From an uncultured Zetaproteobacteria bacterium (GTDB lineage: Bacteria; Pseudomonadota; Zetaproteobacteria; Mariprofundales; Mariprofundaceae), in contig CAMZLG010000127.1 in assembly GCA_947311495.1 (NCBI GenBank), positions 1 through 34,119 of the forward strand: a stretch of DNA of 34,119 nucleotides, given 5' to 3'. A program made the position numbers and the translations under genes. Below the pieces are notes generated by a model that did no database searches, was not told where the DNA came from, and saw only the letters and a program-made list of their open reading frames with translations. The first letter of the stretch is position 1, and each line of letters begins with the position of its first letter. Below, in pieces: positions 507 through 25,393 of this stretch.

Positions 507-556
507 CTGGCTTGTGATGCCGGTGGTCGCGGGTTCGAGCCCCGTCGTCCACCCCA
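507..556 (+). other. 3' fragment of tRNA-His (anticodon arm with GTG, T-arm, acceptor 3' strand, CCA); 5' half missing
   Basis: CTGGC-TTGTGAT-GCCGG is an anticodon arm with GTG (His). It is followed by GCGGG-TTCGAGC-CCCGT (T-arm) and CGTCCAC-C-CCA. No matching 5' acceptor strand (GTGGACG) or D-arm lies upstream. Confidence 0.75.
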
Positions 557-648
557 TTTGTTCTTGTCTCAATAATCCTTATTTATCAGTATGTTATAAG
601 TTTTTGGCGGGTTATTGTCTGCTGCTCCAAAGTGTGGTAAAAAACCAA

Positions 649-1244: not shown

Positions 1245-2333
1245 ATGGCAAAAATAGAAACATTTTATGAAGTGATGCGTAGGCAAGGAATTACGCGTCG
1301 TAGTTTTCTAAAGTATTGTAGTCTTACTGCTGCATCTTTGGGCTTAAGCCCATCCTTTGCACCAAAAATTGCACATGCAATGGAAACAAAACCAAGACTT
1401 CCCGTATTATGGCTGCACGGACTAGAGTGCACATGCTGCTCTGAATCGTTTATCCGCTCTGCTCATCCTTTGGCGAAAGATGTTATTCTTTCTATGCTTT
1501 CGTTGGATTATGATGACACGATTATGGCTGCAGCAGGGCATCAAGCAGAAGCAATTATCGAAGAAACAATCACAAAATATGATGGTCAATTCTTATTGGC
1601 TGTTGAGGGTAATGCACCTCTAAACCAAGATGGCATGTCGATGATTATTGCGGGCAAGCCTTTTTCAGAACAGCTTAATCGTGTTTCTCAGCATTGTAAG
1701 GCAATTATTTCTTGGGGTTCTTGTGCGTCTTGGGGTTGTGTTCAAGCTGCAGCACCTAATCCAACACGCGCTGTACCAACACATAAACACCCAGGCATTG
1801 CAAACAAACCTATTATTAAAGTGCCAGGATGCCCACCGATTGCAGAGGTGATGACTGCTGTAATCGCATACATGATAACATTCGAGAAAATACCTGAGCT
1901 AGATCGCCAAGGTCGTCCGAAGATGTTTTATAGTCAGCGGATTCATGATAAATGCTATCGTCGCCCACACTTTGACGCAGGTCAATTTGTTGAAGAGTTT
2001 GACGATGAATATGCGCGCAAAGGTTATTGCCTTTATAAGGTTGGCTGTAAAGGCCCCACAACTTATAACGCATGTTCAACGATTCGTTGGAATGAAGGCA
2101 CATCTTTCCCCATTCAAGCGGGTCACGGTTGTATTGGTTGTTCTGAAGATGGTTTCTGGGATAAAGGAAGCTTCTATGACCGCTTATCTGGCATTCATCA
2201 ATTTGGGATTGAATCAAATGCTGATGAAGTTGGTGGAACTGCTGCTGCTATCGTCGGCGGTGCTGTTGCAGTGCATGCAGCGGCTTCAGCAATTCAGCGT
2301 GCTACAAGTAAAACTGATCAGGGAGACTCATAA
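1245..2333 (+). CDS. hupS: Uptake [NiFe]-hydrogenase small subunit, Tat signal, O2-tolerant type
   Basis: TRRSFLKYC Tat motif; [35 protein letters not shown]-terminal hydrophobic anchor. Confidence 0.97.
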
Positions 2334-4144
2334 TGAGCGTAACAACTACTCCAAATGGATATAAATTAGATACGGGTGGACAACGTGTTGTCATTGATCC
2401 TGTAACACGTATTGAAGGTCATATGCGCTGCGAAGTGAATGTTGACTCAAATAATGTGATAACTAACGCTGTTTCTACAGGCACAATGTGGCGTGGTCTT
2501 GAAGTGATTCTTAAAGGTCGTGACCCTCGTGATGCTTGGGCATTTGTAGAACGTATTTGTGGTGTTTGTACAGGTTGCCATGCTTTGACCTCTGTACGTG
2601 CGGTGGAAGATGCATTGGATATTAAGATTCCAACCAATGCATTCTTAATTCGTGAAATGATGGCGAAGACATTGCAGGTTCATGACCATGTGGTGCATTT
2701 TTATCACCTTCATGCATTAGACTGGGTTAACCCTGTGAATGCATTAAAAGCTGATCCCAAAGCGACTTCTAAATTGCAACAATTAACAGGGCCTAAACAT
2801 CCAAATTCTAGCCCTGGTTATTTCCGTGATGTACAAACTCGGATTCGCAAATTCATTGAATCAGGTCAGCTTGGTCCGTTTAAAAATGGTTATTGGGATA
2901 ATCCTGCTTATAAACTAACACCTGAAGCAGATTTGATGGCGGTAACGCATTACCTTGAAGCCTTAGATTTGCAGAAAGAGTTTGTTAAAGTACATACCGT
3001 ATTTGGTGGTAAAAATCCGCATCCGAACTATTTGGTTGGTGGTGTTCCTTGCGCTATCAATATGGATGGTGATATGTCTGCTGGTGCACCATTGAATATG
3101 GAACGTCTGAACTTCGTGAAAGCACGTATTGATGAAATGAAAGCATTTAATGATAATGTGTATATCCCTGATGTGTTGGCGATTGCCAGTTTCTACAAGA
3201 AACAATTGTGGGGCGGTGGACTTGGCGCGAAAAGCGTTATGGATTATGGCGCTTATCCGACGGTTAATTATGATAAATCTACGGATCAATTACCTGGCGG
3301 CGTAATTCTTGATGATAATTGGGATAATGTGATGGAAGTTGATCCTCGCGACCCAACACATGTTCAAGAGTTTGTGAACCATTCATGGTATAAATACCCT
3401 GATGAAAGCAAGGGTTTGCATCCTTGGGATGGTATCACTGAACCAAACTATGATGTTAGCTCTGCGAAAGGTACGCGCACCAACATTGAAGAGCTTGATG
3501 AGAATGCGAAGTATTCTTGGATTAAAGCACCGCGTTGGAAAGGTCATGCTGTTGAGGTGGGTCCATTGTCACGCTACACCTTGGCTTATGCACAAGGCGT
3601 TGAGTATGTTCAAGAGCAAGTTCATAAAAGTGTTGCCGCATTTAATGCGCTTGCAGGCACTGATTTGGGCGCGAAACCAATCTTACAATCGACCACTGGT
3701 CGCACATTAGCTCGAGCTTTAGAGTCTCAATATTGTTCTGACATGTTGGTTGATGACTGGAATGCTTTGATTGCCAACATTAAGGCTGGTGATACGGCAA
3801 CTGCGAACATGGAAAAATGGGACCCATCGACTTGGCCTAAAGAGTGTAAGGGTGTTGGTGTAACAGCTGCTCCTCGTGGTGGTCTTGGTCATTGGATTCG
3901 CATTAAAGATGGTAAAATTGAAAACTACCAATGTGTTGTTCCTACAACTTGGAATGGTTCACCACGTGACCCCGCTGGGAATATCGGTGCATTTGAGGCT
4001 TGTTTGATTGGTACGCCAGTTGAGCGTGCTGAAGAGCCAGTCGAAATTCTTCGTAACCTTCACAGCTTTGACCCATGTCTTGCTTGTTCAACGCATGTGA
4101 TGAGCGAAGAAGGTGAAGAGATTGTTAGTGCTAAGGTTCGTTAA
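2333..4144 (+). CDS. hupL: Uptake [NiFe]-hydrogenase large subunit
   Basis: [23 protein letters not shown]-terminal CxxC and [10 protein letters not shown]-terminal motif followed by a cleavable extension [15 protein letters not shown]. Confidence 0.97.
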
Positions 4145-4191
4145 GGTGAGCTCGGTTATGATCATAGTGGGCAGCGAAAGCTGCTCACCTT
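4143..4191 (+). promoter_or_regulatory. Intergenic inverted repeats able to form two alternative hairpins
   Basis: GTGGGCAGC-GAAA-GCTGCTCAC (4167-4188, one G-U pair) and AAGGTGAGC (4143-4151) / GCTCACCTT (4183-4191) share the same 3' strand. Confidence 0.6.
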
Positions 4192-4209
4192 CAACCAAAG
4201 GAGGTTTTT

Positions 4210-4926
4210 ATGTCTGATAGTTCGATTTCAACAGATATGTCGCATGAGATTACCAAACATACGGAAGCTGTGTATGTTTATGAAGCTCCTGTGCGAATTT
4301 GGCATTGGGTAAATGCGCTGGCAATTACCGTCTTATGTGTTACGGGATACTTTATCGGCGCACCGCTACCTACGATGCCTGGCGACCCAAGCTCTAGTTA
4401 TTTGATGGGATATATTCGGTTTGCTCATTTCGCTTCAGGTTATGTGCTTGCTGTCGGTATGATTGGTCGAATTTACTGGGCATTTGTGGGCAACCATCAT
4501 GCCAAGCAACTGTTCATCCCGCCTATTACGAAAGAGCATATTAAAGGTATGATTCATGAAGCACGTTGGTATGCTTTTATGGAAAAAGAATCGGTGAAAT
4601 GTGTGGGACATAACCCTTTAGCACAAGCAGCGATGTTTACCATGTTTGTGTTCGGTACTTTCTTTATGATTATCACAGGCTTTGCCTTATATGGTGAAGG
4701 TGCTGGGATGGGATCATGGCAATATGAATATTTCTCAGCATGGGTAATTCCTATGTTTGGAGCTAGTCAAGATGTGCATACTTTCCATCACTTGGGCATG
4801 TGGTTTTTAATTATTTTTATCATCGCTCATGTTTATGCTTCAATTCGTGAAGATATTATGTCACGTCAAAGCATGGTGAGCACCATGATTAGTGGCTGGC
4901 GTATGTTTAAGGACAATCGGCCATAA
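4210..4926 (+). CDS. hupC: Ni/Fe-hydrogenase b-type cytochrome subunit
   Basis: RIWHWVNALAITVL, RFAHFASGYVL and FHHLGMWFLIIFIIAHVYASIRED motifs; multiple TM segments; follows hupSL. Confidence 0.95.
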   Translation: MSDSSISTDMSHEITKHTEAVYVYEAPVRIWHWVNALAITVLCVTGYFIGAPLPTMPGDPSSSYLMGYIRFAHFASGYVLAVGMIGRIYWAFVGNHHAKQLFIPPITKEHIKGMIHEARWYAFMEKESVKCVGHNPLAQAAMFTMFVFGTFFMIITGFALYGEGAGMGSWQYEYFSAWVIPMFGASQDVHTFHHLGMWFLIIFIIAHVYASIREDIMSRQSMVSTMISGWRMFKDNRP

Positions 4927-5009: not shown

Positions 5010-5960
5010 ATGACAGTGAATAATCAGAAACAATTGTTTGACAAACTTTTATACATTGAAACCGCGCCAACAGAAAATGACTTCATTGAAATCATAAAGC
5101 ATAAACATGATTTCCTCCCTTTACTGTTGAATGAGCTGCGGTTGTTTTCCCAGATACCTGATATTATTGATGCATTTGGGGATAAATATATTCGTCATAT
5201 TGTGAGTATATTTTTACTTGCGCACTTAAGAAGTCAGGATGCTTATGTGCCTATCATTCACTTGCTTAGCAATCATGATAAGAAAATGATGCAGCTAACA
5301 GGCGAAGTTGTTTCTGAATCATTGGGGCGCATTTTAGCATCAGTATATGATGGCGATATTCAGCCCATCAAAGATATTATTGAAAATGAAAGGTTAGACC
5401 CGTGGGTTAGGGCAGGCGCTTTGGATAGCTTGATGGTTTTATGGAAAGAAGATGAGTTATCCCGTAATGAAGTCATCAGTTATTTGGCTGAATTGTTGGG
5501 TGGCAGGCTTGAGAGGCGTGCCAGTTACGTTTGGGATGCTGTTGCTCTTATCGCCCACGATATTCATCCACTTGGTTTGGAAACATTATTAAAACAAGCG
5601 ATTTCTGATAAATTAATCGAACCGATTGTCATGGATGAAGATGTGCTTGAGCGTTGCTTGGCGGAACCTTTTGACAGCATATACAAGAGTAAAACGCAGC
5701 TTGTTGATGGGTATATGAAGTCACCTTTTGAGGAGCTTTCGTGGTGGTTATACCCTGATAGAAAAACTATACAAAAAGGTCAAGATTATGCTTCTCTTGA
5801 TGTCCCAATTGTTGATAAAGAAGTGGTGCCTGGGGAGCGAGTATCGCCCATGGGGTGGCGCTCAGCTACAGTCGTAAATCAACATAAAAAAGTTGGAAGA
5901 AATTCACCTTGCATTTGCGGCAGTGGCAAAAAATACAAAAAGTGCTGTTTGTTAAATTAA
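5010..5960 (+). CDS. DUF1186-like / HEAT-like protein with C-terminal SEC-C zinc motif
   Basis: C-terminus VGRNSPCICGSGKKYKKCCLLN is a SEC-C motif; alpha-helical N-terminal region resembling DUF1186 proteins. Confidence 0.7.
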   Translation: MTVNNQKQLFDKLLYIETAPTENDFIEIIKHKHDFLPLLLNELRLFSQIPDIIDAFGDKYIRHIVSIFLLAHLRSQDAYVPIIHLLSNHDKKMMQLTGEVVSESLGRILASVYDGDIQPIKDIIENERLDPWVRAGALDSLMVLWKEDELSRNEVISYLAELLGGRLERRASYVWDAVALIAHDIHPLGLETLLKQAISDKLIEPIVMDEDVLERCLAEPFDSIYKSKTQLVDGYMKSPFEELSWWLYPDRKTIQKGQDYASLDVPIVDKEVVPGERVSPMGWRSATVVNQHKKVGRNSPCICGSGKKYKKCCLLN

Positions 5961-6161: not shown

Positions 6162-6204
6162 TTTATTCAATGTTCAGGTTGGGTGCTTGGGGGTGAGCGT
6201 GAAT

Positions 6205-6906
6205 ATGAATAAAAAAGTCTTGGTGCTTGGTATAGGAAATATCCTATGGGCAGATGAAGGTTTTGGTGTGCGCACGCTAGAAGCATTACAAAGCCATTAT
6301 GAATTTCCTGATAATGTTACGCTCTTGGATGGTGGTACACAGGGTGTATATTTGGTTCAAGATGTTCGTGATGCTGATATTCTTATTGTATTTGATGCGA
6401 TTGATTATGGTTTAGAGCCAGGTATGATGAAAATCATTACAAATGAAGACGTGCCTAAATTTATGGGTGCAAAAAAAGTTAGCCTTCACCAAACAGGTTT
6501 CCAAGAAGTTTTAGCGCTTGCGGACATGATGGGCGACTATCCAGAGCAAATTATTTTAATTGGTGTACAGCCAGAATACATTGAAGATTTTGGTGGAAGC
6601 TTGAGGCCAGTTGTTAAAGCTCAAATTCAACCAGCGATTGACGAAGCTTTGAAGTTTATGGATGCCAATAGCATTCAGTATAACAAACGAGATGCCCCCA
6701 TTGTTCCCAGTGATGTTAGTGAAGATGCCATTCTAACCATGGATAAATATGAGCAGGGTCGACCCAGCGAAGAAGAGGCATGTCGAATGGGAGATGATCG
6801 TATTCTCACTTCAGAAGCTTTCCAAGTGACAACACCTGAATTGGCTAAAGTTGGCGATAGCCCCATGCAGGTTGAAGTAGATCATCATTTGGAGAAATAC
6901 CGCTAA
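6205..6906 (+). CDS. hupD: Hydrogenase maturation endopeptidase (HyaD/HupD/HoxM)
   Basis: VLVLGIGNILWADEGFGVRTLEAL, LLDGGTQG, DAIDYG, LHQTGFQEVL. ATG at 6205 preferred over the TTG at 6187 given in the ORF track. Confidence 0.93.
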   Translation: MNKKVLVLGIGNILWADEGFGVRTLEALQSHYEFPDNVTLLDGGTQGVYLVQDVRDADILIVFDAIDYGLEPGMMKIITNEDVPKFMGAKKVSLHQTGFQEVLALADMMGDYPEQIILIGVQPEYIEDFGGSLRPVVKAQIQPAIDEALKFMDANSIQYNKRDAPIVPSDVSEDAILTMDKYEQGRPSEEEACRMGDDRILTSEAFQVTTPELAKVGDSPMQVEVDHHLEKYR

Positions 6907-7226
6907 TGTGTCTTGGTATTCCAATGCAGGTGGTATCCGTACTCAGTGAGCATTTGTCGCATTGCCAAGGTATGGGCAAACAAAAAAATATTGATATGAG
7001 TTTGGTTGGTGAACAGCCCGTGGGAACATGGGTGGTTACATTCTTAGATGCTGCTCGAGAAGTTGTTGATGACGACAGAGCCAAACAAATGACAGATGCC
7101 TTGGAGGCAGTTGAACTGGCGATGTTTAGTGATGGATCAGGCATTGATAGTTTGTTTGCAGATATTATTGATAGAGAACCCGAATTGCCCCCACATTTAC
7201 AAGCTGAAATAGGTAAGGAGTCCTAA
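6906..7226 (+). CDS. hupF: HypC/HupF-family hydrogenase assembly chaperone (HoxL-like)
   Basis: MCLGIPMQVV N-terminus; second HypC family member besides the one at 12563. Confidence 0.92.
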   Translation: MCLGIPMQVVSVLSEHLSHCQGMGKQKNIDMSLVGEQPVGTWVVTFLDAAREVVDDDRAKQMTDALEAVELAMFSDGSGIDSLFADIIDREPELPPHLQAEIGKES

Positions 7227-7658
7227 ATGTATTCACCATTGATTGATGAGATGATAGAAAAATATGGCTATCCCGTGCTAACGGAAGAGGCAGTTGCCTC
7301 ATTTGAGAAAGAGCATAAAGATGTGGTTTTGTTCTTTACTGAAAATGCAAATAATTACCCAGAGAGCAATGATGTTGCGGTTATTTTACCTGAAATCATG
7401 AAACAATTTGAAGATAGATTGGTTGCTGCCGTGGTGAGTCGAGAAAGTGAGCGTCCTTTGCAGAGGAAGTACCGGTTTAAGGGCTACCCAGCGTTGGTAT
7501 TTCTTCGAGATGGCGAGTATGTGGGCACAATTTCTAAGGTTCGTGATTGGCTGGAATATATTGATGAGTTTAAAACCATGCTTGCAACATCTCCAACACC
7601 ACCACCAGCGTTTGATTTAGATAATGTTTGTCCTGGCTCAGCGCCAGCTAAAGTTTAA
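7227..7658 (+). CDS. hupG: HupG/HyaE/HoxO-type hydrogenase accessory protein (thioredoxin-like fold)
   Basis: Position between hupF and hupH; thioredoxin-like pattern VVLFFTENA...KYRFKGYPALVFLRDGEYVGTI. Confidence 0.85.
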   Translation: MYSPLIDEMIEKYGYPVLTEEAVASFEKEHKDVVLFFTENANNYPESNDVAVILPEIMKQFEDRLVAAVVSRESERPLQRKYRFKGYPALVFLRDGEYVGTISKVRDWLEYIDEFKTMLATSPTPPPAFDLDNVCPGSAPAKV

Positions 7659-7668
7659 GGAGTTTACC

Positions 7669-8535
7669 ATGACTGAAATTCATATCCCCATTGCAAGTAT
7701 AGGTGTTGGTTCTCAACCTGAAAGTGAAGATGGTAAAACGCTAGAATTTATTCCTATGCCGCATGAGATGAGTGTGTTTGAAGTGTCTAACATGCCAGAG
7801 CCTGAAGATGTGGCAAACCTGCAAGAAGGTATGCAAGCACTACGTTTGGTTCGAGGTGCGCTGAAGAAGTATAAAATGTCAGATGAGCTGACTATGATTG
7901 ATATTACCGATTTGGATGAACAAAACCGTGCCTGGGTAAACACCATGTTAGGTCATGGAGAAGTAAGTGTTATTTATCAAGGTGGTACGCGCACTGAAAT
8001 TCAAGAATCCGTCTTTGCGGGTGTCTGGCGCATCATATATTTGGATGCAGACCGAAATATCATCAAAGACTTTATTGAAATTTCCAGTGTACCTGAGTTG
8101 GTTAAAAACTCATCATTTATTAAGGCGAAAACCAAGCTCGAGTATGATCCAAACAATCTTCCTGAGCGGGTGATGAATGCACCAGCCTTGATTACTGAGC
8201 TTAATGATAAAGTGGCAACATGGAAAGAGGGTGATGAACCACATGTCATTAACTTCAGCTTGCTGCCTCAAACAGAAGAAGACTTGGTGTTCTTGGACAA
8301 GCTGCTTGGCTCGGGCCCCGTGGTCATTTTGTCACGAGGTTATGGTAACTGCCGCATTGCCTGCACAGAAACACAGAATGTGTGGTGGGTAAAATACTTT
8401 AATTCGGAAGATAAGCTAATTTTGGATACTTTGGAAATTAGCACAGTACCTGAAGTGGCATGTGCAGCCGAAGAAGATATTCGTGATAGCTATGATAGAT
8501 TTGTTGAGGTTATGGAACTCTACGATAATGAGTGA
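7669..8535 (+). CDS. hupH: HupH/HyaF/HoxQ hydrogenase accessory protein
   Basis: LLGSGPVVILSRGYGNCRIACTETQNVWWVKYFN motif; RBS before ATG at 7669 (ORF track start 7624 is too far upstream). Confidence 0.92.
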   Translation: MTEIHIPIASIGVGSQPESEDGKTLEFIPMPHEMSVFEVSNMPEPEDVANLQEGMQALRLVRGALKKYKMSDELTMIDITDLDEQNRAWVNTMLGHGEVSVIYQGGTRTEIQESVFAGVWRIIYLDADRNIIKDFIEISSVPELVKNSSFIKAKTKLEYDPNNLPERVMNAPALITELNDKVATWKEGDEPHVINFSLLPQTEEDLVFLDKLLGSGPVVILSRGYGNCRIACTETQNVWWVKYFNSEDKLILDTLEISTVPEVACAAEEDIRDSYDRFVEVMELYDNE

Positions 8536-8755
8536 TGATACGTTTTTTAATTCTTACGGTGGTGATGGTGAGAAGATAGAAGATGATGCTATTTTAGAGT
8601 GTAAAATTTGTTGGCATCAATACAAACCTGATGAAGGTGATGATTACTGGCAAATTGAACCTGGCACACCTTTTTCGGCATTGCCTGAACACTGGAAGTG
8701 TCCTGAATGCGATGGTCGCAAAGAAGACTTCATGGTTGTGTTAAGAGATAAGTAA
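8528..8755 (+). CDS. hupI: Rubredoxin-type hydrogenase accessory protein (HupI/HoxR)
   Basis: CKICWHQYKPDEGDDYWQIEPGTPFSALPEHWKCPECDGRKEDF, two CxxC knuckles. Confidence 0.93.
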   Translation: MSDDTFFNSYGGDGEKIEDDAILECKICWHQYKPDEGDDYWQIEPGTPFSALPEHWKCPECDGRKEDFMVVLRDK

Positions 8756-8756
8756 G

Positions 8757-9362
8757 GTGAAGTTAAAGTCATTAACGCCTATGGGAGCAGCGTATCACTT
8801 GGAACAGCTGTATGAAAATATTCGTGTAACACGTATGGTGGGTGTGCCGATATTAAATGAGAAGATTAAGGTGCAGGCTGTTGGTTTTCGAGAATGGAAC
8901 CAACATGTTTTGGGTGTGTTGATTACACCGTGGTTTATGAACTTGATGCTATTGCCAACTGAAAACACAAGCTGGGATGGGTTCAAGTTTGGCAGTAAAC
9001 ATAGCTATACTTTTGAAGCAGGTGCCTTTGAATTTATTTTGGGTGAAGAAGAAGATTTGGGACAATATATGAGCTGCTCTATGTTTTCGCCTATGTTTGA
9101 TTTTGAAAACCATCAAGCAGCGGTTGAAACTGCCGAAGCCATTGTGTCAGGTATGTTTAAGATTGAAAATAAAGAAGAACTTGGCTCAGAAGACTTGCCC
9201 AATGATGATAAGGCACAAGAAGATATAGCTGAAGAAAGTATGTTGGAAACAGTGGTTGAAGGTGCGCAGGCTATTGGCTCGATGGCTAAAGAAAGTTTGG
9301 AGAAACCTTTGTCGCGGCGCGAATTGCTGCGCGGTGGATTCTTGAAGAATGCAGTAAAATAA
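8757..9362 (+). CDS. hupJ: HupJ/HoxT (HybE-family) hydrogenase assembly chaperone
   Basis: VPILNEKIKVQAVGFREW...VLITPWFMNLMLLP motif; position in operon. Confidence 0.88.
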   Translation: MKLKSLTPMGAAYHLEQLYENIRVTRMVGVPILNEKIKVQAVGFREWNQHVLGVLITPWFMNLMLLPTENTSWDGFKFGSKHSYTFEAGAFEFILGEEEDLGQYMSCSMFSPMFDFENHQAAVETAEAIVSGMFKIENKEELGSEDLPNDDKAQEDIAEESMLETVVEGAQAIGSMAKESLEKPLSRRELLRGGFLKNAVK

Positions 9363-9379
9363 AGCGTAAAAGGAAAGGA

Positions 9380-10132
9380 ATGATGGTTAAAGGTTATAAC
9401 TTAACAAATATTGGAACACCGTTGAAGGTGCTGTTCACCAGCTATTTATGTGTAGTTGGTATTGGTTACTTGATGGCAGTAACACAAATTTTATTCACGC
9501 ATGGTATGGCAGATGGCAAGTTTGGTTTATCCGTTGATGACATTGTGTACAGTTATTATGGTGATAGGTCTGGTACGTTAATTGAACATAAATTAAACGG
9601 TTCAATGAAGGAAAATGCACCTGATGAAGATAGGTTCAAGATTATTCAATGGGTTAGGGATGGCGCTGAGGAAAGTGAGTTTAAGTCTCGCGGCATCAAT
9701 GAGATTTTCGAAAACAACTGCTTGGCTTGTCATAGTGCTGAAGCAGAAATGGGACTACCAGATTTTTCTGATTTCAAGAATATTAAAGAACGTTCAGAGG
9801 CAGACACAGGGGCAACCTTTTCATCTCTGGCACGGGTTTCGCATATTCATTTGTTTGGCATTGCCTTTATCTTTTTCTTTGTCGGAGCGATTTTTGTATT
9901 CGCCAAAAATGTCCCTGTTTGGTTGAAGGGGTTGGTTATTGCGATGCCTTTTGTTTCTCAAGTTATGGATATTAGTGCTTGGTGGCTTACTAAGTTTGAC
10001 CCTGTGTTTGCATGGTTGGTTATTATTGGGGGTAGCGGCATGGGTGCTGCGTTTGCTTTCATGTGGTTTGTTTCGGTTTATGAGATGTGGATAAGTAAGC
10101 ATGATGATACTTCTGTGATTGATGAGCATTGA
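9380..10132 (+). CDS. Membrane protein with one c-type haem motif (CLACH), hydrogenase-cluster associated
   Basis: N-terminal TM segment, soluble domain with NNCLACHSAEAEMGLPDF, then about three TM segments; between hupJ and hupK. Confidence 0.8.
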   Translation: MMVKGYNLTNIGTPLKVLFTSYLCVVGIGYLMAVTQILFTHGMADGKFGLSVDDIVYSYYGDRSGTLIEHKLNGSMKENAPDEDRFKIIQWVRDGAEESEFKSRGINEIFENNCLACHSAEAEMGLPDFSDFKNIKERSEADTGATFSSLARVSHIHLFGIAFIFFFVGAIFVFAKNVPVWLKGLVIAMPFVSQVMDISAWWLTKFDPVFAWLVIIGGSGMGAAFAFMWFVSVYEMWISKHDDTSVIDEH

Positions 10133-10135
10133 TTG

Positions 10136-11314
10136 ATGGGCTTAGAAGGCAATGTATCGATTTCACTGTTGCTTGCGAACCAAGGCGTTCAACAAGCTGC
10201 GGTGAAGTCGCAACGACCATTGCTGGCTCAAGCGCTACTTGCTGGTGTGAATGCAAAGCAAGCACCACAAAAGGTTGGGATGGTATTTAACTTGTGCGCA
10301 AAGTCTCAAGCCTCGGCATCCGTGTTTGCCATTGAGCAAGCTTCGGGAACAGCATCAACCAAAGAAGCTTGTGCTGTCCGCGCTCAATTGGTGCGCATGG
10401 AGCTGATTCGTGAACATTTATGGCGTATTTGTTTGGATTGGCCAAAGCTCAGAGGCGCACAAGCAGATAATGCTTTGATGAAACAAGTGTTGTTGCTGGA
10501 TAAAGAATGGGAAGCTTGTTTGGATGCGGATAAACAGGCTTTCATATTGGGTGGTGATGTAAAACCGCCGCTTAAAGCCAAAGCATCAAGCATTGCCATG
10601 AAACTTGGCACACTGCTTAAAGAGCATATCTTTTATATGCCTCCCAAAGCTTTTTATGCATGTAAAGGTGCTGAAGAATACTTGCTTTGGGCGCAATATA
10701 CGCAGATGAATGTGCCGCAACTGATACAAAGCTTGGTGGTTAATGGTTGGCAAGCTTCGGGTCAAACAGACACTGCGGCGTTGCCTTATTTTCAAGTCTC
10801 TTGGCTGCAGGAAATATTATCATCGGACAATGCTGAAAGCTTCATGAAGCAACCCAGTATTGAGGGTGAAACCTTTGAAAGCACACCGTATGCAAGACAG
10901 GCGTCGCACCCGCTGATAGTTGAATTGGAACAAAAATATGGTGTGGGTTTGTTGGTTCGCTTTACAGCAGTGTTGCTAGAACTTGCCAAGACGTATTTGG
11001 ATTTAGAAAAGGCATTGATGCAGTCTGAATCCAAATGTGATGTGGTGGGAAGTGCGCCTGATAAAACGGGTTTTGGTGCAGTGGAAGCTGCGCGTGGCCG
11101 TTTGCTACACAGAGTTGTTTTGGACGATGAAAACAAGGTTGAAACTTACCAAATCGTTGCGCCAACAGAGTGGAACTTCCATCCTGATGGTGTGTTGAAA
11201 CGAGCATTGGAAAAGTTGCAAGGTGATACTGAATCCATTGAGCAACAAGCCAAATTATTAATTCACGCTATGGATCCATGTGTTGCATTTGAATTAGAGG
11301 TGAGCCATGCATGA
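10136..11314 (+). CDS. hupK: HupK/HoxV hydrogenase maturation scaffold
   Basis: Large-subunit-like C-terminus: EAARGRLLHRVVLDDENKVETYQIVAPTEWNFHPDGVLKRAL...[15 protein letters not shown]; position before hypA. Confidence 0.9.
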   Translation: MGLEGNVSISLLLANQGVQQAAVKSQRPLLAQALLAGVNAKQAPQKVGMVFNLCAKSQASASVFAIEQASGTASTKEACAVRAQLVRMELIREHLWRICLDWPKLRGAQADNALMKQVLLLDKEWEACLDADKQAFILGGDVKPPLKAKASSIAMKLGTLLKEHIFYMPPKAFYACKGAEEYLLWAQYTQMNVPQLIQSLVVNGWQASGQTDTAALPYFQVSWLQEILSSDNAESFMKQPSIEGETFESTPYARQASHPLIVELEQKYGVGLLVRFTAVLLELAKTYLDLEKALMQSESKCDVVGSAPDKTGFGAVEAARGRLLHRVVLDDENKVETYQIVAPTEWNFHPDGVLKRALEKLQGDTESIEQQAKLLIHAMDPCVAFELEVSHA

Positions 11315-15038: not shown

Positions 15039-16742
15039 ATGCGAATTTTGCTGCTAACCCACGCTTTTAATAGCCTTACCCAAAGGCTGTTTGTGGCACT
15101 GCAGCAGGATAAACATGAGGTCACCATTGAGTTCGACATCAATGATGAAACAGCGCAAGAAGCCATTGATTTGTTTCAGCCTGATTTGATTGTTGCCCCC
15201 TATTTGAAGCGAGCCATTCCTGATTCGATTTGGCAAAATCATACATGTTTGATTGTTCACCCCGGTATTGTGGGTGACAGAGGCCCTTCATCTTTGGACT
15301 GGGCAATTATCAATCGAGAAAAAACTTGGGGTGTCACCGTGCTTCAAGCCAATGCCGAGATGGATGCGGGCGATATTTGGGCAAGCATAGAGTTTGAGAT
15401 GCGTGATGCCACCAAAGCCAGCATTTACCGCAATGAAGTGACCACGGCTGCCGTGCAAGCTGTCCAACAAGCAATTGAACATTTTAAAGGCTCCGAATTT
15501 AAACCCTCACCCTTAAAACAAAAGCTTTTATCCGCCAAAGGTAAACTTCGTCCACTGATGGCGCAGAATGTGCGCCGAATCAATTGGCAAAAAGATGATA
15601 CCGAAACTGTATTACGCAAAATCAGGTGTGCGGATGGTTTTCCAGGTGTGCGTGATGAATTATTTGGTCGGGAAGTGTTGATTTATGATGCACATATTGC
15701 TGAAGGGTTGCGAGGTAAAGCGGGTGAGGTGATTGCCAAGTCTGGGCTTGCGTTATGCAAAGCAACTGTGGATGGCGCGGTTTGGGTTGGGCATGTCAAA
15801 GATAAGTCACATCATCATGCGTTCAAATTGCCTGCTACGGTATTGTTTAAAGAGCAGTGTAAAGACCTGTATGACGCACCTACCTGTGAAGGTTATCAAG
15901 AGATACGCTATGAAGAAACCCATGATGTGGGTTATCTTCATTTTCCTTTTTATAATGGTGCGATGAGCACCAAGCAATGCCAAGATTTGTTGGCTGCATA
16001 CCAAGATGCGACCCAACACAACACAAAAGTGATTGTGTTGATGGGTGGTGCTGATTTTTGGTCGAATGGCATTCATTTGAACATGATTGAAGCCGCCAAA
16101 AGCCCTGCTGATGAATCGTGGGCAAATATCAATGCCATGGATGACTTATCCGAAGCGATTATTCGCACCACTTCACATATCGTCATTTCAGCCATGCAGG
16201 GCAATGTTGGTGCTGGTGGTGTGTTTTTGGCAAGGGCTGCTGATGAAGTCTGGGCGCATGAACATGTAATCTTGAATCCACATTACAAAGATATGGGCAA
16301 CTTGTATGGCTCGGAATATTGGACATATTTATTGCCCAAATATTGCGGTGAAGACCATGCCAAACGCATTACCCAAGCGCGTTTACCTATGGGTGTTAAC
16401 GAAGCTTTGGACTTGGGTCTGTTGGATGCTGTGATTCAAGGTGAAAAAGCAGGTTTTATTGAAGTCGTCAAAAGCAAAGCCACCGCTTTGGCGCAACAAG
16501 ATAGTATCTATGCCACGTTGCAACAAAAAGAAGTGCAGCGCGACCAAGATGAAGCTGAAAAAGCTTTGTCGGCTTACCGTGAAGAAGAGTTGCGACGTAT
16601 GAAGAAAAACTTTTATGGCTTTGACCCAAGCTACCATGTCGCAAGGTATAACTTTGTGTACAAGGTCTGTAAATCTAGGACACCACTTACGCTTGCAGGA
16701 CATCGAAATAAGGCAAGGCGTGAGATGAGGAGAGCGGCATGA
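15039..16742 (+). CDS. hypX: HypX/HoxX, CO-ligand synthesis enzyme (formyltransferase + enoyl-CoA hydratase-like)
   Basis: N-terminal formyltransferase-like region (VHPGIVGDRGPSSLDWAI...GDIWAS) and C-terminal crotonase-like region (VIVLMGGADFWSNGIHLN...NVGAGGVFLARAADEV). Confidence 0.94.
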   Translation: MRILLLTHAFNSLTQRLFVALQQDKHEVTIEFDINDETAQEAIDLFQPDLIVAPYLKRAIPDSIWQNHTCLIVHPGIVGDRGPSSLDWAIINREKTWGVTVLQANAEMDAGDIWASIEFEMRDATKASIYRNEVTTAAVQAVQQAIEHFKGSEFKPSPLKQKLLSAKGKLRPLMAQNVRRINWQKDDTETVLRKIRCADGFPGVRDELFGREVLIYDAHIAEGLRGKAGEVIAKSGLALCKATVDGAVWVGHVKDKSHHHAFKLPATVLFKEQCKDLYDAPTCEGYQEIRYEETHDVGYLHFPFYNGAMSTKQCQDLLAAYQDATQHNTKVIVLMGGADFWSNGIHLNMIEAAKSPADESWANINAMDDLSEAIIRTTSHIVISAMQGNVGAGGVFLARAADEVWAHEHVILNPHYKDMGNLYGSEYWTYLLPKYCGEDHAKRITQARLPMGVNEALDLGLLDAVIQGEKAGFIEVVKSKATALAQQDSIYATLQQKEVQRDQDEAEKALSAYREEELRRMKKNFYGFDPSYHVARYNFVYKVCKSRTPLTLAGHRNKARREMRRAA

Positions 16743-18232
16743 GTGAAACATTACCTTCAATATTATTGGTTGATGATGAAGTTAGAGTATTGGAATCCCT
16801 ACAGCGTTTGCTCGAAGATGATTTTGATGTGCATACTGCCAATTCAGCTGATGATGCGATGATGGTGCTTGCAGATGAGTTTATTCAGGTTGTGATTTCT
16901 GACCAACGTATGCCTGGAATGACTGGTGTAGAGTTTTTACAAGAAGTTCGAGGTCGTTTTCCAGAGGTGATTCGGATGATTGTGTCCGGATATACTGACT
17001 CAGAAGATATTATCACTGCAGTGAATGAAGCTGGGATTCACCAATACATTACCAAGCCTTGGGACCCTGATAACTTGCTGTTAACGGTTAGAAACGCGAC
17101 ATATTTATTTCAACTTCAACGTAAAAACCAGCAGCTCACGACAGAGCTGAAAATGTTACCATCCAGTGTTGAGGATGGTCTCGAAGAATTAAGACACCGT
17201 TTAATCAATGCTTATGATGTTGATTACGGGATTATTCGTGCGCCTGATAGCTGTATGAATAATGTGTGCGATATTATTCGGCAAGTGGCAACGTTTGACG
17301 TGTCTGTGTTGCTGATGGGTGATTCGGGTGTGGGTAAAGAGTTGTCTGCACGAGCTTTGCACTATGGGAGCCTGCGTTCGGATAAACCTTTTGTAGCAGA
17401 AAACTGTGCGGCACTTCCCGATGAACTTTTAGAGAGTGAACTTTTTGGATATAAGAAAGGGGCTTTTACGGGTGCGAATGCTAATCGCATTGGACTATTT
17501 GAAGAAGCTGATGGCGGAACCATCTTTTTGGATGAGATTGGGGATACCACGCCAGCGTTCCAAGTGAAGTTATTGCGCGTTTTACAAGAAGGTGAAATTC
17601 GCCCACTTGGCAGTAATGAGCGCAAAAAAATAAATGTTAGAGTTCTTGCAGCGACCAATAAAGATTTAGAGAAAGAAGTCAGGGAAGGACGTTTCCGTGA
17701 GGACTTATACTATCGACTTTCCACGTTTAAAATTAATATTCCCCCGCTTTCAGAGCGGCTTGATGATGTACCTTTATTAGCCCGAGCCATACTTGAAACA
17801 ACGATGCAAGAGCTTGGAAAAAAAGTGAAAGGGTTTTCTGATGAGGCGTTAGCTTGCATGAAGTCATATCATTGGCCTGGGAATGTGCGTGAACTGCAGA
17901 ACGAAGTAAAGCGTATGTTGGTGATGGCAAATGGTGATTACTTAGGTGCGGAACTTTTATCACCTCAGGTATTGCGTGCTGCTCCAAAAGAAGATGAAGT
18001 GGAATTAGAGTGGTTAACAAGCCAAGAAGGCTCTTTGCGAGAGCGGTTAGATAGCTTAGAGGCAAGAATTGTGAAAGAGGCTTTAATCCGTAATCGTTGG
18101 AATAAGAGCAAAACTGCAAAAGAACTCGGTTTATCTCGAGTAGGTCTGGGAAACAAACTCGAAAGGTATGGTCTAGAAAAGGTTGAAACACTGGATTTAG
18201 ATGATGGGCAGTTGCAGGCAACAGGAAGCTGA
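16739..18232 (+). CDS. hoxA: NtrC-family sigma54-dependent response regulator (HoxA/HupR-like)
   Basis: Receiver domain VVISDQRMPGMTG; AAA+ GDSGVGKE, ELFGYKKGAFTGA; C-terminal Fis-type HTH NRWNKSKTAKELGLSRVGLGNKL. Confidence 0.94.
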   Translation: MSETLPSILLVDDEVRVLESLQRLLEDDFDVHTANSADDAMMVLADEFIQVVISDQRMPGMTGVEFLQEVRGRFPEVIRMIVSGYTDSEDIITAVNEAGIHQYITKPWDPDNLLLTVRNATYLFQLQRKNQQLTTELKMLPSSVEDGLEELRHRLINAYDVDYGIIRAPDSCMNNVCDIIRQVATFDVSVLLMGDSGVGKELSARALHYGSLRSDKPFVAENCAALPDELLESELFGYKKGAFTGANANRIGLFEEADGGTIFLDEIGDTTPAFQVKLLRVLQEGEIRPLGSNERKKINVRVLAATNKDLEKEVREGRFREDLYYRLSTFKINIPPLSERLDDVPLLARAILETTMQELGKKVKGFSDEALACMKSYHWPGNVRELQNEVKRMLVMANGDYLGAELLSPQVLRAAPKEDEVELEWLTSQEGSLRERLDSLEARIVKEALIRNRWNKSKTAKELGLSRVGLGNKLERYGLEKVETLDLDDGQLQATGS

Positions 18233-18246
18233 GTAAAGTAAAGCTT

Positions 18247-19602
18247 ATGCCTATTGCACTCTCCAAACAAATCATCGACACAGCAGCCAATGCTTTGGAA
18301 AATGATAATGAGGGTATGTGGATTGAAGTTATCCAAAAAATGGATGCAGTGTATGCAGACTTATTACGATACCAAGTTGAATTAGAAGAAAAAAATGTTG
18401 CCTTAGAAGAAGCACAACAATTTATCCGTGGTGTATTAACATCAATGACGGATATTTTGGTGGTTTGTGATTTATCTGGCTATATCCAACAATCCAATAA
18501 AGCATTGTCCGAGTTATTTGGTCAGTCTGAGGATTCATTGGTTGGGGTGCCAATCCAAACATTTTTTGACGAGCTCTCACAATCCGCATTGTTGAAATGC
18601 CTAGACAGAGCAAGGTTGGGAATGTCTGAGGAGCATGAAGTTTCTGTGGTTGATACGCATGGTATATCATCACCACTTGTTGTTCGTTGCTCCCCCCAAT
18701 TTGACCATGAAGGTGTTTTAATCGGCATGGTGCTTATAGGGAGACCGATAGGTGAATTAAGGAAAGCCTATAATGAATTGAACCAGACCCATATAGAACT
18801 TAAAGAAGCACAAAATCAGTTGGTTCAATCTGAGAAAATGGCATCGTTAGGTCGCTTGGTGGCGGGGGTTGCTCATGAACTGAATAACCCGATTAGTTTT
18901 GTGCATAGTAATATGTATGCAATCAAAAAGTATGGCTATCGTCTTAGAGAGTATATAGAAGATTTACATGAGCAACTGGGTGATAATTTAGATGAATCAC
19001 TACGCAAAAAATTAAAAATCGATAGAATTCTAGATGATATTCCTTCGTTGGTTGATGGAGGTTTGGAAGGAACGGTGCGAGTGAGTTCCATTGTTCAAGA
19101 CTTGCGTCGTTATTCAACCTCACACCGTGAACAAAAAAATGAATTTAATCTCTTGGAGACTGTTAGAAATGCAACCCAGTGGGTTACTAAAACATCACGG
19201 GTACAAGCTACGCTTAGCATTAATGGCGAGCCATTGATGGTACGAACTTATGAAGGGTTTGTTCATCAAGTGATTGTTAACCTTATTCAGAACAGTTTGG
19301 ATGCGATGGAAGAACTAAAGGTTCGAAAAATAAATGTCGATTGCTACCAAGAGGGTAATCATGCAAAAGTAAGCATCCGTGATTTTGGTAATGGTATTTC
19401 TGAGGAACACTTATTGCAGATTTTTGACCCTTTCTTTACCACCAAAGAAGTGGGTAAAGGTACAGGGCTTGGTTTATATGTGAGTTATGGGCTGATTGTG
19501 GAGCAATGCGGCGGCATGATGAGTGCTGAAAACCACCCAGATGGTGGTGCAGTGTTCACAGTCTCTGTGCCGCTTAATGAAGGAGAAGCAGATGCCAGCT
19601 AA
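18247..19602 (+). CDS. hoxJ: PAS-domain sensor histidine kinase (HoxJ/HupT-like)
   Basis: PAS region; H-box VAGVAHELNNPISFVHSN; N-box IQNSLDAM; G-boxes DFGNGI, GKGTGLGLYV. Confidence 0.92.
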   Translation: MPIALSKQIIDTAANALENDNEGMWIEVIQKMDAVYADLLRYQVELEEKNVALEEAQQFIRGVLTSMTDILVVCDLSGYIQQSNKALSELFGQSEDSLVGVPIQTFFDELSQSALLKCLDRARLGMSEEHEVSVVDTHGISSPLVVRCSPQFDHEGVLIGMVLIGRPIGELRKAYNELNQTHIELKEAQNQLVQSEKMASLGRLVAGVAHELNNPISFVHSNMYAIKKYGYRLREYIEDLHEQLGDNLDESLRKKLKIDRILDDIPSLVDGGLEGTVRVSSIVQDLRRYSTSHREQKNEFNLLETVRNATQWVTKTSRVQATLSINGEPLMVRTYEGFVHQVIVNLIQNSLDAMEELKVRKINVDCYQEGNHAKVSIRDFGNGISEEHLLQIFDPFFTTKEVGKGTGLGLYVSYGLIVEQCGGMMSAENHPDGGAVFTVSVPLNEGEADAS

Positions 19603-20602
19603 ACCTTTGAATATGTTGTGGTTGCAATCGGGTGGTTGTGGCGGCTGTACGCTTTCCATGCTGAATGCTGAATCACCTGATGTGTTAACCAGCTTTGAAG
19701 GGGCGGGTATTCATGTGCTTTGGCACCCATCCCTTAGTTTAGAAACTGGTCAAGAAGTTGTCGATATATTAAGAGCGATAGTGGATGGTGAAATAACCTT
19801 AGACATTCTTTGTTTGGAAGGTTCTGTTGTTCGCGGTCCGAACAAAACTGGCAAATTTCATATGCTGGCTGGTACTGGCGAACCGATGATGAATTGGATT
19901 GATAAGTTATCTGCTAAAGCAGAACATGTAGTGGCAGTTGGTACATGTGCTGCCTACGGCGGGATAACAGCGGGAGGGGGCAATCCATCGGATGCATGTG
20001 GATTGCAATATGATGGCGAAAAAGAGGGTGGTTTTTTAGGTAAAGCTTTTAAAGCAAAGTCGGGTATGGGCGTGGTCAATATTGCAGGTTGCCCTACTCA
20101 CCCTAACTGGGTAACAGAAACGCTCTCACAAATTGCAATTGGTGATTTTACACAAGATAGTATGGATAAGCTTGGTCGCCCGAGAAGTTATGCTGATCAA
20201 TTGGTGCATCATGGGTGTTCACGGAATGAGTTTTATGAGTTTAAAGCCAGCGCAGAGAAGCCTGGGGATTTGGGTTGCATGATGGAAAATATGGGCTGTG
20301 TAGGTACACAAGCTCATGCTGATTGTAATATCAGGCCTTGGAATGGTGAGGGTTCTTGTATTCGGGGCGGTTATGCATGTGTGAACTGCACAGCTCCTGG
20401 TTTTGAAGAGCCGGGACATACTTTTACACAAACACCAAAAGTTGGTGGAATCCCAGTTGGTTTACCTACGGATATGCCTAAAGCTTGGTTTGTAGCTTTG
20501 GCTTCTTTATCAAAAGCAGCAACACCTGCGAGACTAAAGAAAAATGCAGTGGTAGATCATATTGAAGTTGCACCAACCATTCACCTTAAGGAGAAGTCAT
20601 GA
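19592..20602 (+). CDS. hupU: Regulatory (H2-sensing) hydrogenase small subunit HupU/HoxB
   Basis: LQSGGCGGCTLSMLNAE; no Tat signal; ATG at 19592 (MPAKPLNMLW) rather than 19523. Confidence 0.94.
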   Translation: MPAKPLNMLWLQSGGCGGCTLSMLNAESPDVLTSFEGAGIHVLWHPSLSLETGQEVVDILRAIVDGEITLDILCLEGSVVRGPNKTGKFHMLAGTGEPMMNWIDKLSAKAEHVVAVGTCAAYGGITAGGGNPSDACGLQYDGEKEGGFLGKAFKAKSGMGVVNIAGCPTHPNWVTETLSQIAIGDFTQDSMDKLGRPRSYADQLVHHGCSRNEFYEFKASAEKPGDLGCMMENMGCVGTQAHADCNIRPWNGEGSCIRGGYACVNCTAPGFEEPGHTFTQTPKVGGIPVGLPTDMPKAWFVALASLSKAATPARLKKNAVVDHIEVAPTIHLKEKS

Positions 20603-22050
20603 GCCGCAGAATTATTGGGCCATTTAATCGCGTTGAAGGTGATTTGGAAGTGCAATTGGATATTGAAAATGGGCAAGTCAATGATGCTTGGGTGGTGTCG
20701 CCTATGTATCGTGGTTTTGAACAAATGTTGCATGGCAAAAACCCTATGGATGCTATGAGTTACGTGCCGCGCATTTGTGGTATTTGTTCTGTTGCACAAT
20801 CGGTGGCTGCAGCTTATGCCATTGCCGATGCGCAAGGTGTGAAAATGCCAAAAAATGGAGAGCTTGCCACCAATCTTATTCTAGCTAATGAAAATATGTC
20901 TGACCATTTAACCCATTTTTATATGTTTTTTATGCCAGATTTCACACGAGATATTTATCAGTCTGAACCTTGGTATGCTAAAGTGAAAGACAGGTTTACC
21001 GCTGTGAAAGGCAGCGCTGCTAAAGATATGCTGCCTGCACGTGCTCAGTTTATGCATATGATGGGCATGTTGGCTGGGAAATGGCCGCATACGTTGTCCA
21101 TTCAACCTGGGGGTACGTCACGCGCCATAACGGCGGTTGAAAAAACACGACTACTTGCCATTTTACATCAATTTCGGGTGTTTCTTGAACAAACCATGTT
21201 TGGTGATGACTTGGAGAATGTTGTGTCCTTATCATCGACGAAGCAACTCGAAGCATGGTTAGATAGTGATAAACACCGCCAAAGTGATTTTGGTTTGTTT
21301 TTACAAATTGCCGCATCGCTAGACCTCGAAAGCATGGGTAGAGCAACCGACAAGTTCATGAGCTTTGGTGTTTACCCTGTTGGTGGCAAACGTTTGTTTG
21401 CATCAGGTGTGTGGGAAAACGGTGATGTTGAGCCCATGAATGCAGAAGCAATTAAAGAAGATATTTCGCATAGTTGGATGCTTCATGGCGCTGAGCCGAA
21501 ACATCCTCGTGAGGGAGTCACCATACCTGACCCTGATATGAAAGATGGCTATACATGGTGCAAAGCACCACGTTTGGCAGGGGATGTGGTGGAAGTTGGC
21601 GCATTTGCTAGACAGGTTGTGTCAGGACAAAATCTTATTGCTGACTTGGTTGAATCATCAGGTGGCAATGTACGCAATCGGATTATTGGTAGGCTTGTTG
21701 AGCTAGCGACTGTCGTGCTTGAAATGGAATCATGGATTAAAGAAATACGCCCCACTGAACCTTTTTATCATTTAACATCCATGCCTGATGAAGCTGAAGG
21801 TGCAGGGCTTATGGAAGCAGCGCGAGGTAGCCTTGGTCATTGGCTAAAAGTGAAGAATGGTAGGATTATTAATTATCAGATTATTGCTCCAACCACTTGG
21901 AATTTTTCACCGCGTGATTCGCACGGTAAGCTTGGTGCGTTGGAGCAAGCTTTGCTTGGCGCGCCTATTCGGGAGGGCGAAGATACGCCTGTTTCCGTAC
22001 AGCATATTGTACGTTCATTTGACCCTTGCATGGTTTGCACTGTCCACTAA
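20599..22050 (+). CDS. hupV: Regulatory (H2-sensing) hydrogenase large subunit HupV/HoxC
   Basis: RICGICSVAQSVAAAYAIADAQG; ends at FDPCMVCTVH with no C-terminal extension. Confidence 0.95.
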   Translation: MSRRIIGPFNRVEGDLEVQLDIENGQVNDAWVVSPMYRGFEQMLHGKNPMDAMSYVPRICGICSVAQSVAAAYAIADAQGVKMPKNGELATNLILANENMSDHLTHFYMFFMPDFTRDIYQSEPWYAKVKDRFTAVKGSAAKDMLPARAQFMHMMGMLAGKWPHTLSIQPGGTSRAITAVEKTRLLAILHQFRVFLEQTMFGDDLENVVSLSSTKQLEAWLDSDKHRQSDFGLFLQIAASLDLESMGRATDKFMSFGVYPVGGKRLFASGVWENGDVEPMNAEAIKEDISHSWMLHGAEPKHPREGVTIPDPDMKDGYTWCKAPRLAGDVVEVGAFARQVVSGQNLIADLVESSGGNVRNRIIGRLVELATVVLEMESWIKEIRPTEPFYHLTSMPDEAEGAGLMEAARGSLGHWLKVKNGRIINYQIIAPTTWNFSPRDSHGKLGALEQALLGAPIREGEDTPVSVQHIVRSFDPCMVCTVH

Positions 22051-24381: not shown

Positions 24382-24444
24382 CATTAATGTATACTTGCTA
24401 TGCATAAAATATTCTAAGGTTGAGATGGGTAGCTGCACCTTGAT

Positions 24445-24459
24445 TGGCATATAAATTGC
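24445..24459 (+). promoter_or_regulatory. sigma54 -24/-12 promoter upstream of nickel permease-tatA
   Basis: TGGCATATAAATTGC: GG-N10-GC with full TTGC -12 box, preceded by T, 28 bp upstream of the ATG. Confidence 0.8.
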
Positions 24460-24487
24460 GTTCTATTTTATTTGGGCTGGAGGGTTC

Positions 24488-25201
24488 ATGTTAAGTGTTT
24501 TATTTTTAGGTTTCTTATTGGGTATGCGCCATGCGATTGAAGCTGATCATGTTGCGGCAGTTGCATCCATGACGACACGCAGTACATCGTTAATTGAGGC
24601 TTTGCGTCTTGGTGCCACTTGGGGCTTAGGTCATACATTGACGTTGTTTCTGTTTGGTTCGATTGTTATTTTTTCAAGCTCTGCAATTCCAGATAAAATA
24701 GCAATGTCACTGGAATTTGTTGTGGGTATCATGTTGGTTTTCTTAGGTATAGATGTCATACGCCGTATGTTAAAAGAGCGCATCCATTTTCATGCACATA
24801 AACATGCAGATGGCATCAAACATTTTCATGCACATTCGCATAAAGGTGAGGGTGTTCATAAAAAATCATCTCATGAGCACACGCATCAAAAAGGATTTCA
24901 GTTTCGTTCGCTTTTTGTGGGTATGATGCACGGTATGGCTGGATCAGCAGCTTTGATTGTACTTGCTTTGCAAACTGTTGAATCGCCATCGGTAGGTGTG
25001 ATCTACATAGCATTATTTGGTTTAGGATCGGTGGTTGGCATGGGTGTGTTAGCAACAGTGGTTATGATGTCCTTACGTCACTCTGCGAAGAAATTGACAC
25101 GGTTTTACAATGGTTTTCAAGCCATGATTGGCGCGGGCACAATTGCTTTGGGCATGTTTATGATGTACGAAATTGGTATTGTTGAAGGTTTGGTTCTTTA
25201 A
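24488..25201 (+). CDS. High-affinity nickel permease, NiCoT/UreH-like
   Basis: GMRHAIEADHVAAVASM; GATWGLGHTLTLFLFG; His-rich loop HFHAHKHADGIKHFHAHSHKGEGVHKKSSHEHTHQ; multiple TMs. Confidence 0.85.
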   Translation: MLSVLFLGFLLGMRHAIEADHVAAVASMTTRSTSLIEALRLGATWGLGHTLTLFLFGSIVIFSSSAIPDKIAMSLEFVVGIMLVFLGIDVIRRMLKERIHFHAHKHADGIKHFHAHSHKGEGVHKKSSHEHTHQKGFQFRSLFVGMMHGMAGSAALIVLALQTVESPSVGVIYIALFGLGSVVGMGVLATVVMMSLRHSAKKLTRFYNGFQAMIGAGTIALGMFMMYEIGIVEGLVL

Positions 25202-25228
25202 GACGAGTTTAAGAGAGAAGAGGTTGAT

Positions 25229-25393
25229 ATGTTTGGATTAGGAACAACAGAATTGATACTTGTTTTGGTTATTGTTGTGGTGCTGTTTGGTGCTAAGAAG
25301 CTACCCGAATTAGGCGAAGGTCTAGCGAAAGGAATCAAAAGTTTCCGAACTAATTTATCTGAAGATGGTAAGCCGCAACGCGAAGATAATTAG
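25229..25393 (+). CDS. tatA: Short Sec-independent translocase protein TatA
   Basis: [54 protein letters not shown]; classic [10 protein letters not shown] motif. Missing from the ORF track (54 aa). Confidence 0.93.

Follow-up and report, generated by a model that had tools for sequence, protein, structure and literature searches.

A contig of 34,119 nucleotides from an uncultured member of the Zetaproteobacteria (CAMZLG010000127.1; this whole stretch is hereafter called the window) carries an H2-oxidation operon in which an extra gene, an open reading frame of 250 amino acids on the forward strand (9380-10132), is located between hoxT and hoxV. Its product is assigned to an unnamed bacterial family of predicted membrane-anchored monohaem cytochromes; as the original prediction for this DNA had anticipated, no characterised function was found, and the literature consulted yielded no description of such a cytochrome family. 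On balance, the protein is probably a modular inner-membrane monohaem c-type cytochrome, i.e. a general electron-transfer part of lithotrophic chains that was recruited by the hydrogenase operon.

Family scans of the neighbouring genes confirmed an extra gene in an otherwise conventional order, which reads hoxM-L-O-Q-R-T-(monohaem cytochrome gene)-V, with hypA-E downstream of hoxV in the window:

1245..4926, forward strand: uptake [NiFe]-hydrogenase, group-1d-like, with hupS (1245-2333), hupL (2333-4144) and the cytochrome b gene hupC (4210-4926) (family scans)
6187..9362, forward strand: maturation genes hoxM, hoxL, hoxO, hoxQ, hoxR (rubredoxin) and hoxT (HybE), upstream of the insertion (family scans)
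9369..9379, forward strand: AAAGGAAAGGA, a ribosome-binding-like stretch ahead of the start (sequence)
9380..10132, forward strand: coding sequence of the putative membrane-anchored monohaem cytochrome, 250 amino acids, start possibly 9383
10133..11314, forward strand: hoxV (HupK-like), directly after the stop codon of the inserted gene (family scans)

The second ATG, at 9383, may be the real start, since homologues begin at the second Met. Among 78 genomes of Zetaproteobacteria, 65 carry the family, with group A being 69-83% and group B about 37-47% identical to the protein of the window. Uptake-type HupL is found in eight of these genomes, all of which (8/8) carry the inserted gene adjoining hoxV; a ninth genome, G063, also has the gene beside hoxV on a contig that stops before hupL. 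The gene lies between hoxT and hoxV in all nine clusters where the contig extends that far, and this syntenic slot is kept across three genera. The insertion is fixed in the zetaproteobacterial group-1d operons found. It is also under purifying selection: NG86 ratios of nonsynonymous to synonymous substitution rates (dN/dS) of about 0.04-0.13 against G021, G032 and G009 are comparable to those of hoxT and hoxV, although they are approximate, with dS near saturation. Together, the low dN/dS, the synteny in nine genomes and a CxxCH motif that is invariant in 55/55 homologues argue that the gene is not a chance reading frame.

An AlphaFold2 model based on an alignment of 55 sequences (mean pLDDT 93.6, pTM 0.83) contains four transmembrane (TM) helices, with a helical domain between helices 1 and 2. 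This bears out the anatomy proposed originally, namely an N-terminal TM helix, a soluble domain with one CxxCH and three further TM helices; in the sequence, the motif is found exactly at 9719-9733. With the CxxCH in the periplasm, the N- and C-terminus would both be cytoplasmic. The features of the protein are as follows:

9416..9499, forward strand: TM helix 1, residues 13-40 (AlphaFold2, hydropathy)
9500..9817, forward strand: predicted haem domain on the periplasmic side, residues 41-146, interrupting loop 1 of the four-TM scaffold (AlphaFold2; haemless relative L112)
9605..9607, forward strand: invariant Met76, which precedes the CxxCH and is a candidate distal haem ligand (55/55 homologues)
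9719..9733, forward strand: CxxCH motif for haem c attachment, C114-L-A-C-H118 (55/55 homologues)
9818..9895, forward strand: TM helix 2, residues 147-172, with conserved R152, H155 and H157 at the periplasmic side (alignment, AlphaFold2; both His also in haemless relatives)
9917..9997, forward strand: TM helix 3, residues 180-206, with conserved D197, W201 and K205 (alignment, AlphaFold2)
10001..10090, forward strand: TM helix 4, residues 208-237 (AlphaFold2)

Invariant in the 55 diverse homologues are Y59, G61, M76, W91, C114, C117, H118, G144, H157, F172, P190, D197, W201 and G218. Haem would be attached to C114-L-A-C-H118, and the genome encodes a protein for cytochrome c assembly (PF01578). 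The Met close to the motif that the original prediction had pointed out, M124, turned out not to be conserved (16/55 homologues); M76, 38 residues upstream of the CxxCH, is the sole invariant Met and is for this reason a candidate distal haem ligand. The haemless relative L112 has no stretch matching approximately residues 62-142 of the protein of the window. H155, H157, D197, W201 and K205 are retained in haemless relatives and therefore belong to the membrane scaffold and not to the haem c; they could form a site for quinone or for a partner protein. Finally, most zetaproteobacterial operon copies end in an SSVIDEH-like C-terminal tail (window 10091-10132; L053-L059), which is absent from stand-alone copies and may be selected at the protein level or via coupling to hoxV translation.

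No known family accounts for this protein. Pfam gave no match above cut-off (Cytochrom_C, PF00034, reached 18.9 bits against a cut-off of 21.3), nothing relevant was found among the NCBIfam families, and the sequence search of the PDB returned weak motif-level matches only. Foldseek searches of the PDB with two models detected no significant fold, the model with pLDDT 93.6 yielding 46 matches, of which none had E <= 0.001. Matches to cytochrome oxidase and four-helix bundles were not significant and were set aside, as were Pfam matches to PalH, Rav1p_C and Claudin, dismissed as chance-level hits of helices. A plasmid collection contained no homologue by either tblastn or blastn.

Nevertheless, several known systems share individual traits with the protein. 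Class I cytochromes c (PF00034) and the PccH-type (PF22297; PDB 4rlr, a one-haem cytochrome c) have in common with it one CxxCH, around which their profiles match it weakly and in part; yet these matches are confined to the motif region, stay below the Pfam cut-off and concern a domain fused into a four-TM scaffold. Unlike class I cytochromes c, moreover, the family has no conserved Met C-terminal to the CxxCH, its invariant Met being located upstream instead. CcoP/FixP, the membrane-anchored cytochrome c of cbb3 oxidase, likewise starts with a TM helix at its N-terminus and continues into a haem c domain in the periplasm, but the protein of the window scores 11.9 bits against a TIGR00782 cut-off of 179.95, has one haem motif rather than two haems and possesses three extra TM helices. 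HupC/HoxZ, the cytochrome b of group 1 hydrogenases, is encoded in the same operon, also spans the membrane with four helices and has conserved His close to the periplasmic side; however, the inserted gene product matches neither PF01292 nor TIGR02125 and carries a haem c motif, and HupC is separately encoded (4210-4926). The quinol dehydrogenases NapC/NrfH/CymA couple quinol to periplasmic carriers, and here the likeness lies in the concept of a membrane-anchored c-type cytochrome doing so; the protein of the window differs in having a single CxxCH and four TM helices, as opposed to several haems and one TM helix, and has no NapC-family profile match. The label 'elongation factor-1-alpha' is used wrongly for small membrane proteins. 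A gene of this name, reported inside the group-1d hydrogenase cluster II of Hydrogenovibrio SP-41 (PMC6501319), is the closest lead in the literature to a possible member of this family.

Homologues of the gene are mostly found outside hydrogenase loci. Scanning 85,462 species genomes for a sequence pattern recovered 50 relatives, which belong to Mariprofundus, Methylococcales and Gallionella/Nitrosomonadales; not one of them (0/50) is located in a hup/hox operon, and at the three loci read in detail the family gene stands beside housekeeping genes. Among 369 gammaproteobacterial genomes, 64 have a family match, and most inspected copies stand alone. One gammaproteobacterial copy, at L232 (1835-8430), is embedded in a sox cluster with the order soxY, soxB, family gene, ResB-like gene, soxX, soxA. 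In Zetaproteobacteria, every clade-B locus (34/34) places the paralogue next to a cytochrome c gene of the trihaem type, the c5-like type or both, a count in which some genomes are included twice. In G021, the clade-B gene overlaps the cytochrome gene, and a HemN-like gene follows the two. At L119 (5629-8056), L126 (5519-8825) and L069-L081, the clade-B paralogue belongs to a conserved cluster that also encodes c5-like and trihaem cytochromes and a HemN-like protein; this cluster is a candidate part of iron-oxidation electron flow. Haemless relatives of the four-TM scaffold (L112, 113-712; L111, 4699-5364) each adjoin a cytochrome c-like gene as well, the former lying directly downstream of this separate gene.

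In Gammaproteobacteria, a second association with hydrogenases came to light. Three genomes from two families (G490, G719 and G621) carry a family member between hupC and hoxM. These are three of 20 group-1d-like loci inspected; at the other 17 (HupL 62-86% identical), no family gene was found in the stretch read, several such stretches stopping at contig ends. The tree separates the hydrogenase-linked copies of Zetaproteobacteria and Gammaproteobacteria, and one common origin for both sets was rejected (log-likelihood difference 113, p-AU of the approximately unbiased test 1.3e-16). Since the tree does not allow both sets to be held together, it indicates at least two independent recruitments into hydrogenase operons. 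The co-occurrence with group 1d hydrogenases that the original prediction had put up for checking proved weak: across the 369 Gammaproteobacteria, no strong association with HupL (presence threshold E <= 1e-150) was found, with 15/59 genomes with HupL against 49/310 without it carrying the family (Fisher p 0.059), and 49 of the 64 family-bearing genomes have no HupL match at this threshold. A divergent stand-alone copy in G414 (L114, L176) is situated 19 kb from a hydrogenase locus.

tRNA-His sequences recur beside the hydrogenase cluster or the lone gene:

509..561, forward strand: 3′ fragment of tRNA-His left of the hydrogenase cluster (53/53 nucleotides identical to the tRNA-His region in L124)
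L234 1440-1515, L124 1974-2049 and L125 5783-5858: tRNA-His at the relatives' loci

The genes of G021 run glgP-kinase-folK-tRNA-Pro-Arg-His-integrase-like gene-hydrogenase cluster, and another integrase-family gene closes the far end, a layout that fits the published cluster of Ghiorsea bivora TAG-1, which is bordered by an integrase and a recombinase (PMC6501319). G035 and G029, which belong to the same genus as G021, have the same kinase-folK-tRNA array followed by a cytochrome gene standing without hydrogenase genes. In G035 this gene lies 60 bp past the tRNA-His; in G029 a patatin-like gene precedes it. No HupL was found in either of these incomplete drafts (85-88%). Their copies group with the operon copy of G063 (98/91), inside the operon clade (99/95), and the simplest reading is that they are what remains of a hydrogenase cluster since lost. 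This scenario is favoured but not proven, because the drafts are incomplete and monophyly of the nine zetaproteobacterial operon copies to the exclusion of the two stand-alone ones is not rejected (p-AU 0.12).

How, then, might the protein work? Its architecture would be that of a four-helix membrane scaffold with a haem c domain inserted in the first periplasmic loop. On the outer side of the inner membrane, it would most likely carry electrons between c-type cytochromes of the periplasm and either the quinone pool or a dehydrogenase complex linked to quinone. Lithotrophs would have attached this same general part to different electron-donor systems, among them the hydrogenase operon of the window, where electrons from H2 would gain a path into the pool of c-type cytochromes in addition to the HupC/quinone route. 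We infer the electron transfer itself as well as its direction and partners; a general role of this kind fits the neighbourhoods best, because copies adjoin c-type cytochromes (all clade-B loci) and sox genes. Several observations weigh against it: haem binding is predicted from a single motif, with Pfam Cytochrom_C below cut-off; most group-1d operons work without the gene, as judged by 17 of the 20 gammaproteobacterial loci inspected, within the stretch read; no fold match in the PDB indicates a role for the scaffold; and many gammaproteobacterial and stand-alone clade-A copies have no adjoining cytochrome or dehydrogenase.

The original prediction had proposed an additional electron-transfer or membrane-anchoring subunit of the hydrogenase. 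Of this, a membrane-anchored monohaem protein stands, encoded in all group-1d operons found in Zetaproteobacteria and, by separate recruitment, directly behind hupC in a gammaproteobacterial hydrogenase operon; a hydrogenase subunit in the strict sense is not supported, given its absence from such operons in the genome scan and its distribution in Gammaproteobacteria. A dedicated structural subunit, docked on HupSL-HupC and receiving electrons directly from HupS or HupC, is unlikely because homologues lie mostly outside hydrogenase loci, a finding that the original prediction had itself named as speaking against the idea. Fixation in all hydrogenase-bearing Zetaproteobacteria found, the independent placement directly after hupC and the SSVIDEH-like tail of most zetaproteobacterial operon copies would suit such a subunit, but HupL co-occurrence is weak, the gene is missing from most group-1d operons inspected in Gammaproteobacteria, and in Zetaproteobacteria it sits among maturation genes instead of beside hupC; the lone G035/G029 pair, inside the operon clade in genomes without a found hupL, counts against it as well. 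A gene can be fixed in such an operon throughout one lineage without its product being a subunit of the hydrogenase.

The location among maturation genes, between hoxT and abutting hoxV, might instead point to an accessory redox factor, periplasmic or membrane-bound, that serves hydrogenase assembly or oxygen protection like HoxR, HoxT and HoxV. Yet HoxO-V maturation is cytoplasmic, while the CxxCH needs the periplasm for haem attachment; the gammaproteobacterial operons place the gene elsewhere, and many copies occur without hydrogenase. This explanation is the least probable of all. Somewhat less remote, though still improbable and behind the dedicated subunit, is a cargo gene of an integrative island, without a role in H2 metabolism and merely expressed from the operon. 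The intact tRNA-His and integrase-like gene adjoining the cluster in G021, and the lone copies beside the same tRNA-His in G035 and G029, agree with it; the same operon slot in three genera under purifying selection, and the independent recruitment of another family gene by a hydrogenase operon of a second lineage, do not.

A bolder form of the preferred reading, a general electron-transfer cytochrome, is speculative and rather doubtful, if less so than these alternatives: the family might be a plug-in module of lithotrophs through which group-1d hydrogenases (and Sox enzymes) deliver electrons directly to c-type cytochromes of the periplasm, around or alongside the quinone pool, via a membrane fold without a solved relative. 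Should the preferred reading hold, an inner-membrane cytochrome family that is widespread among iron oxidisers, methanotrophs and oxidisers of sulfur or hydrogen would have been overlooked, and it would become testable how Zetaproteobacteria that oxidise Fe(II) and H2 connect the two electron-donor pathways. Proteomes of Fe(II)- versus H2-grown Ghiorsea bivora TAG-1 reportedly exist.

Several minor observations were made along the way. Small lipoprotein-like monohaem proteins with a weak match to the family profile are encoded divergently from a family gene at L224 (5846-6283) and L230 (3031-3414). In the window, a gene for a DUF1186/SEC-C protein (5010-5960) is inserted between hupC and hoxM, with DNA similarity there also in G032 and G009. 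The cluster is completed at 15039-25393 by hoxX, hoxA, a histidine kinase gene, a second (regulatory-type) hydrogenase pair, hypF, a NicO-like nickel transporter gene and a TatA gene.
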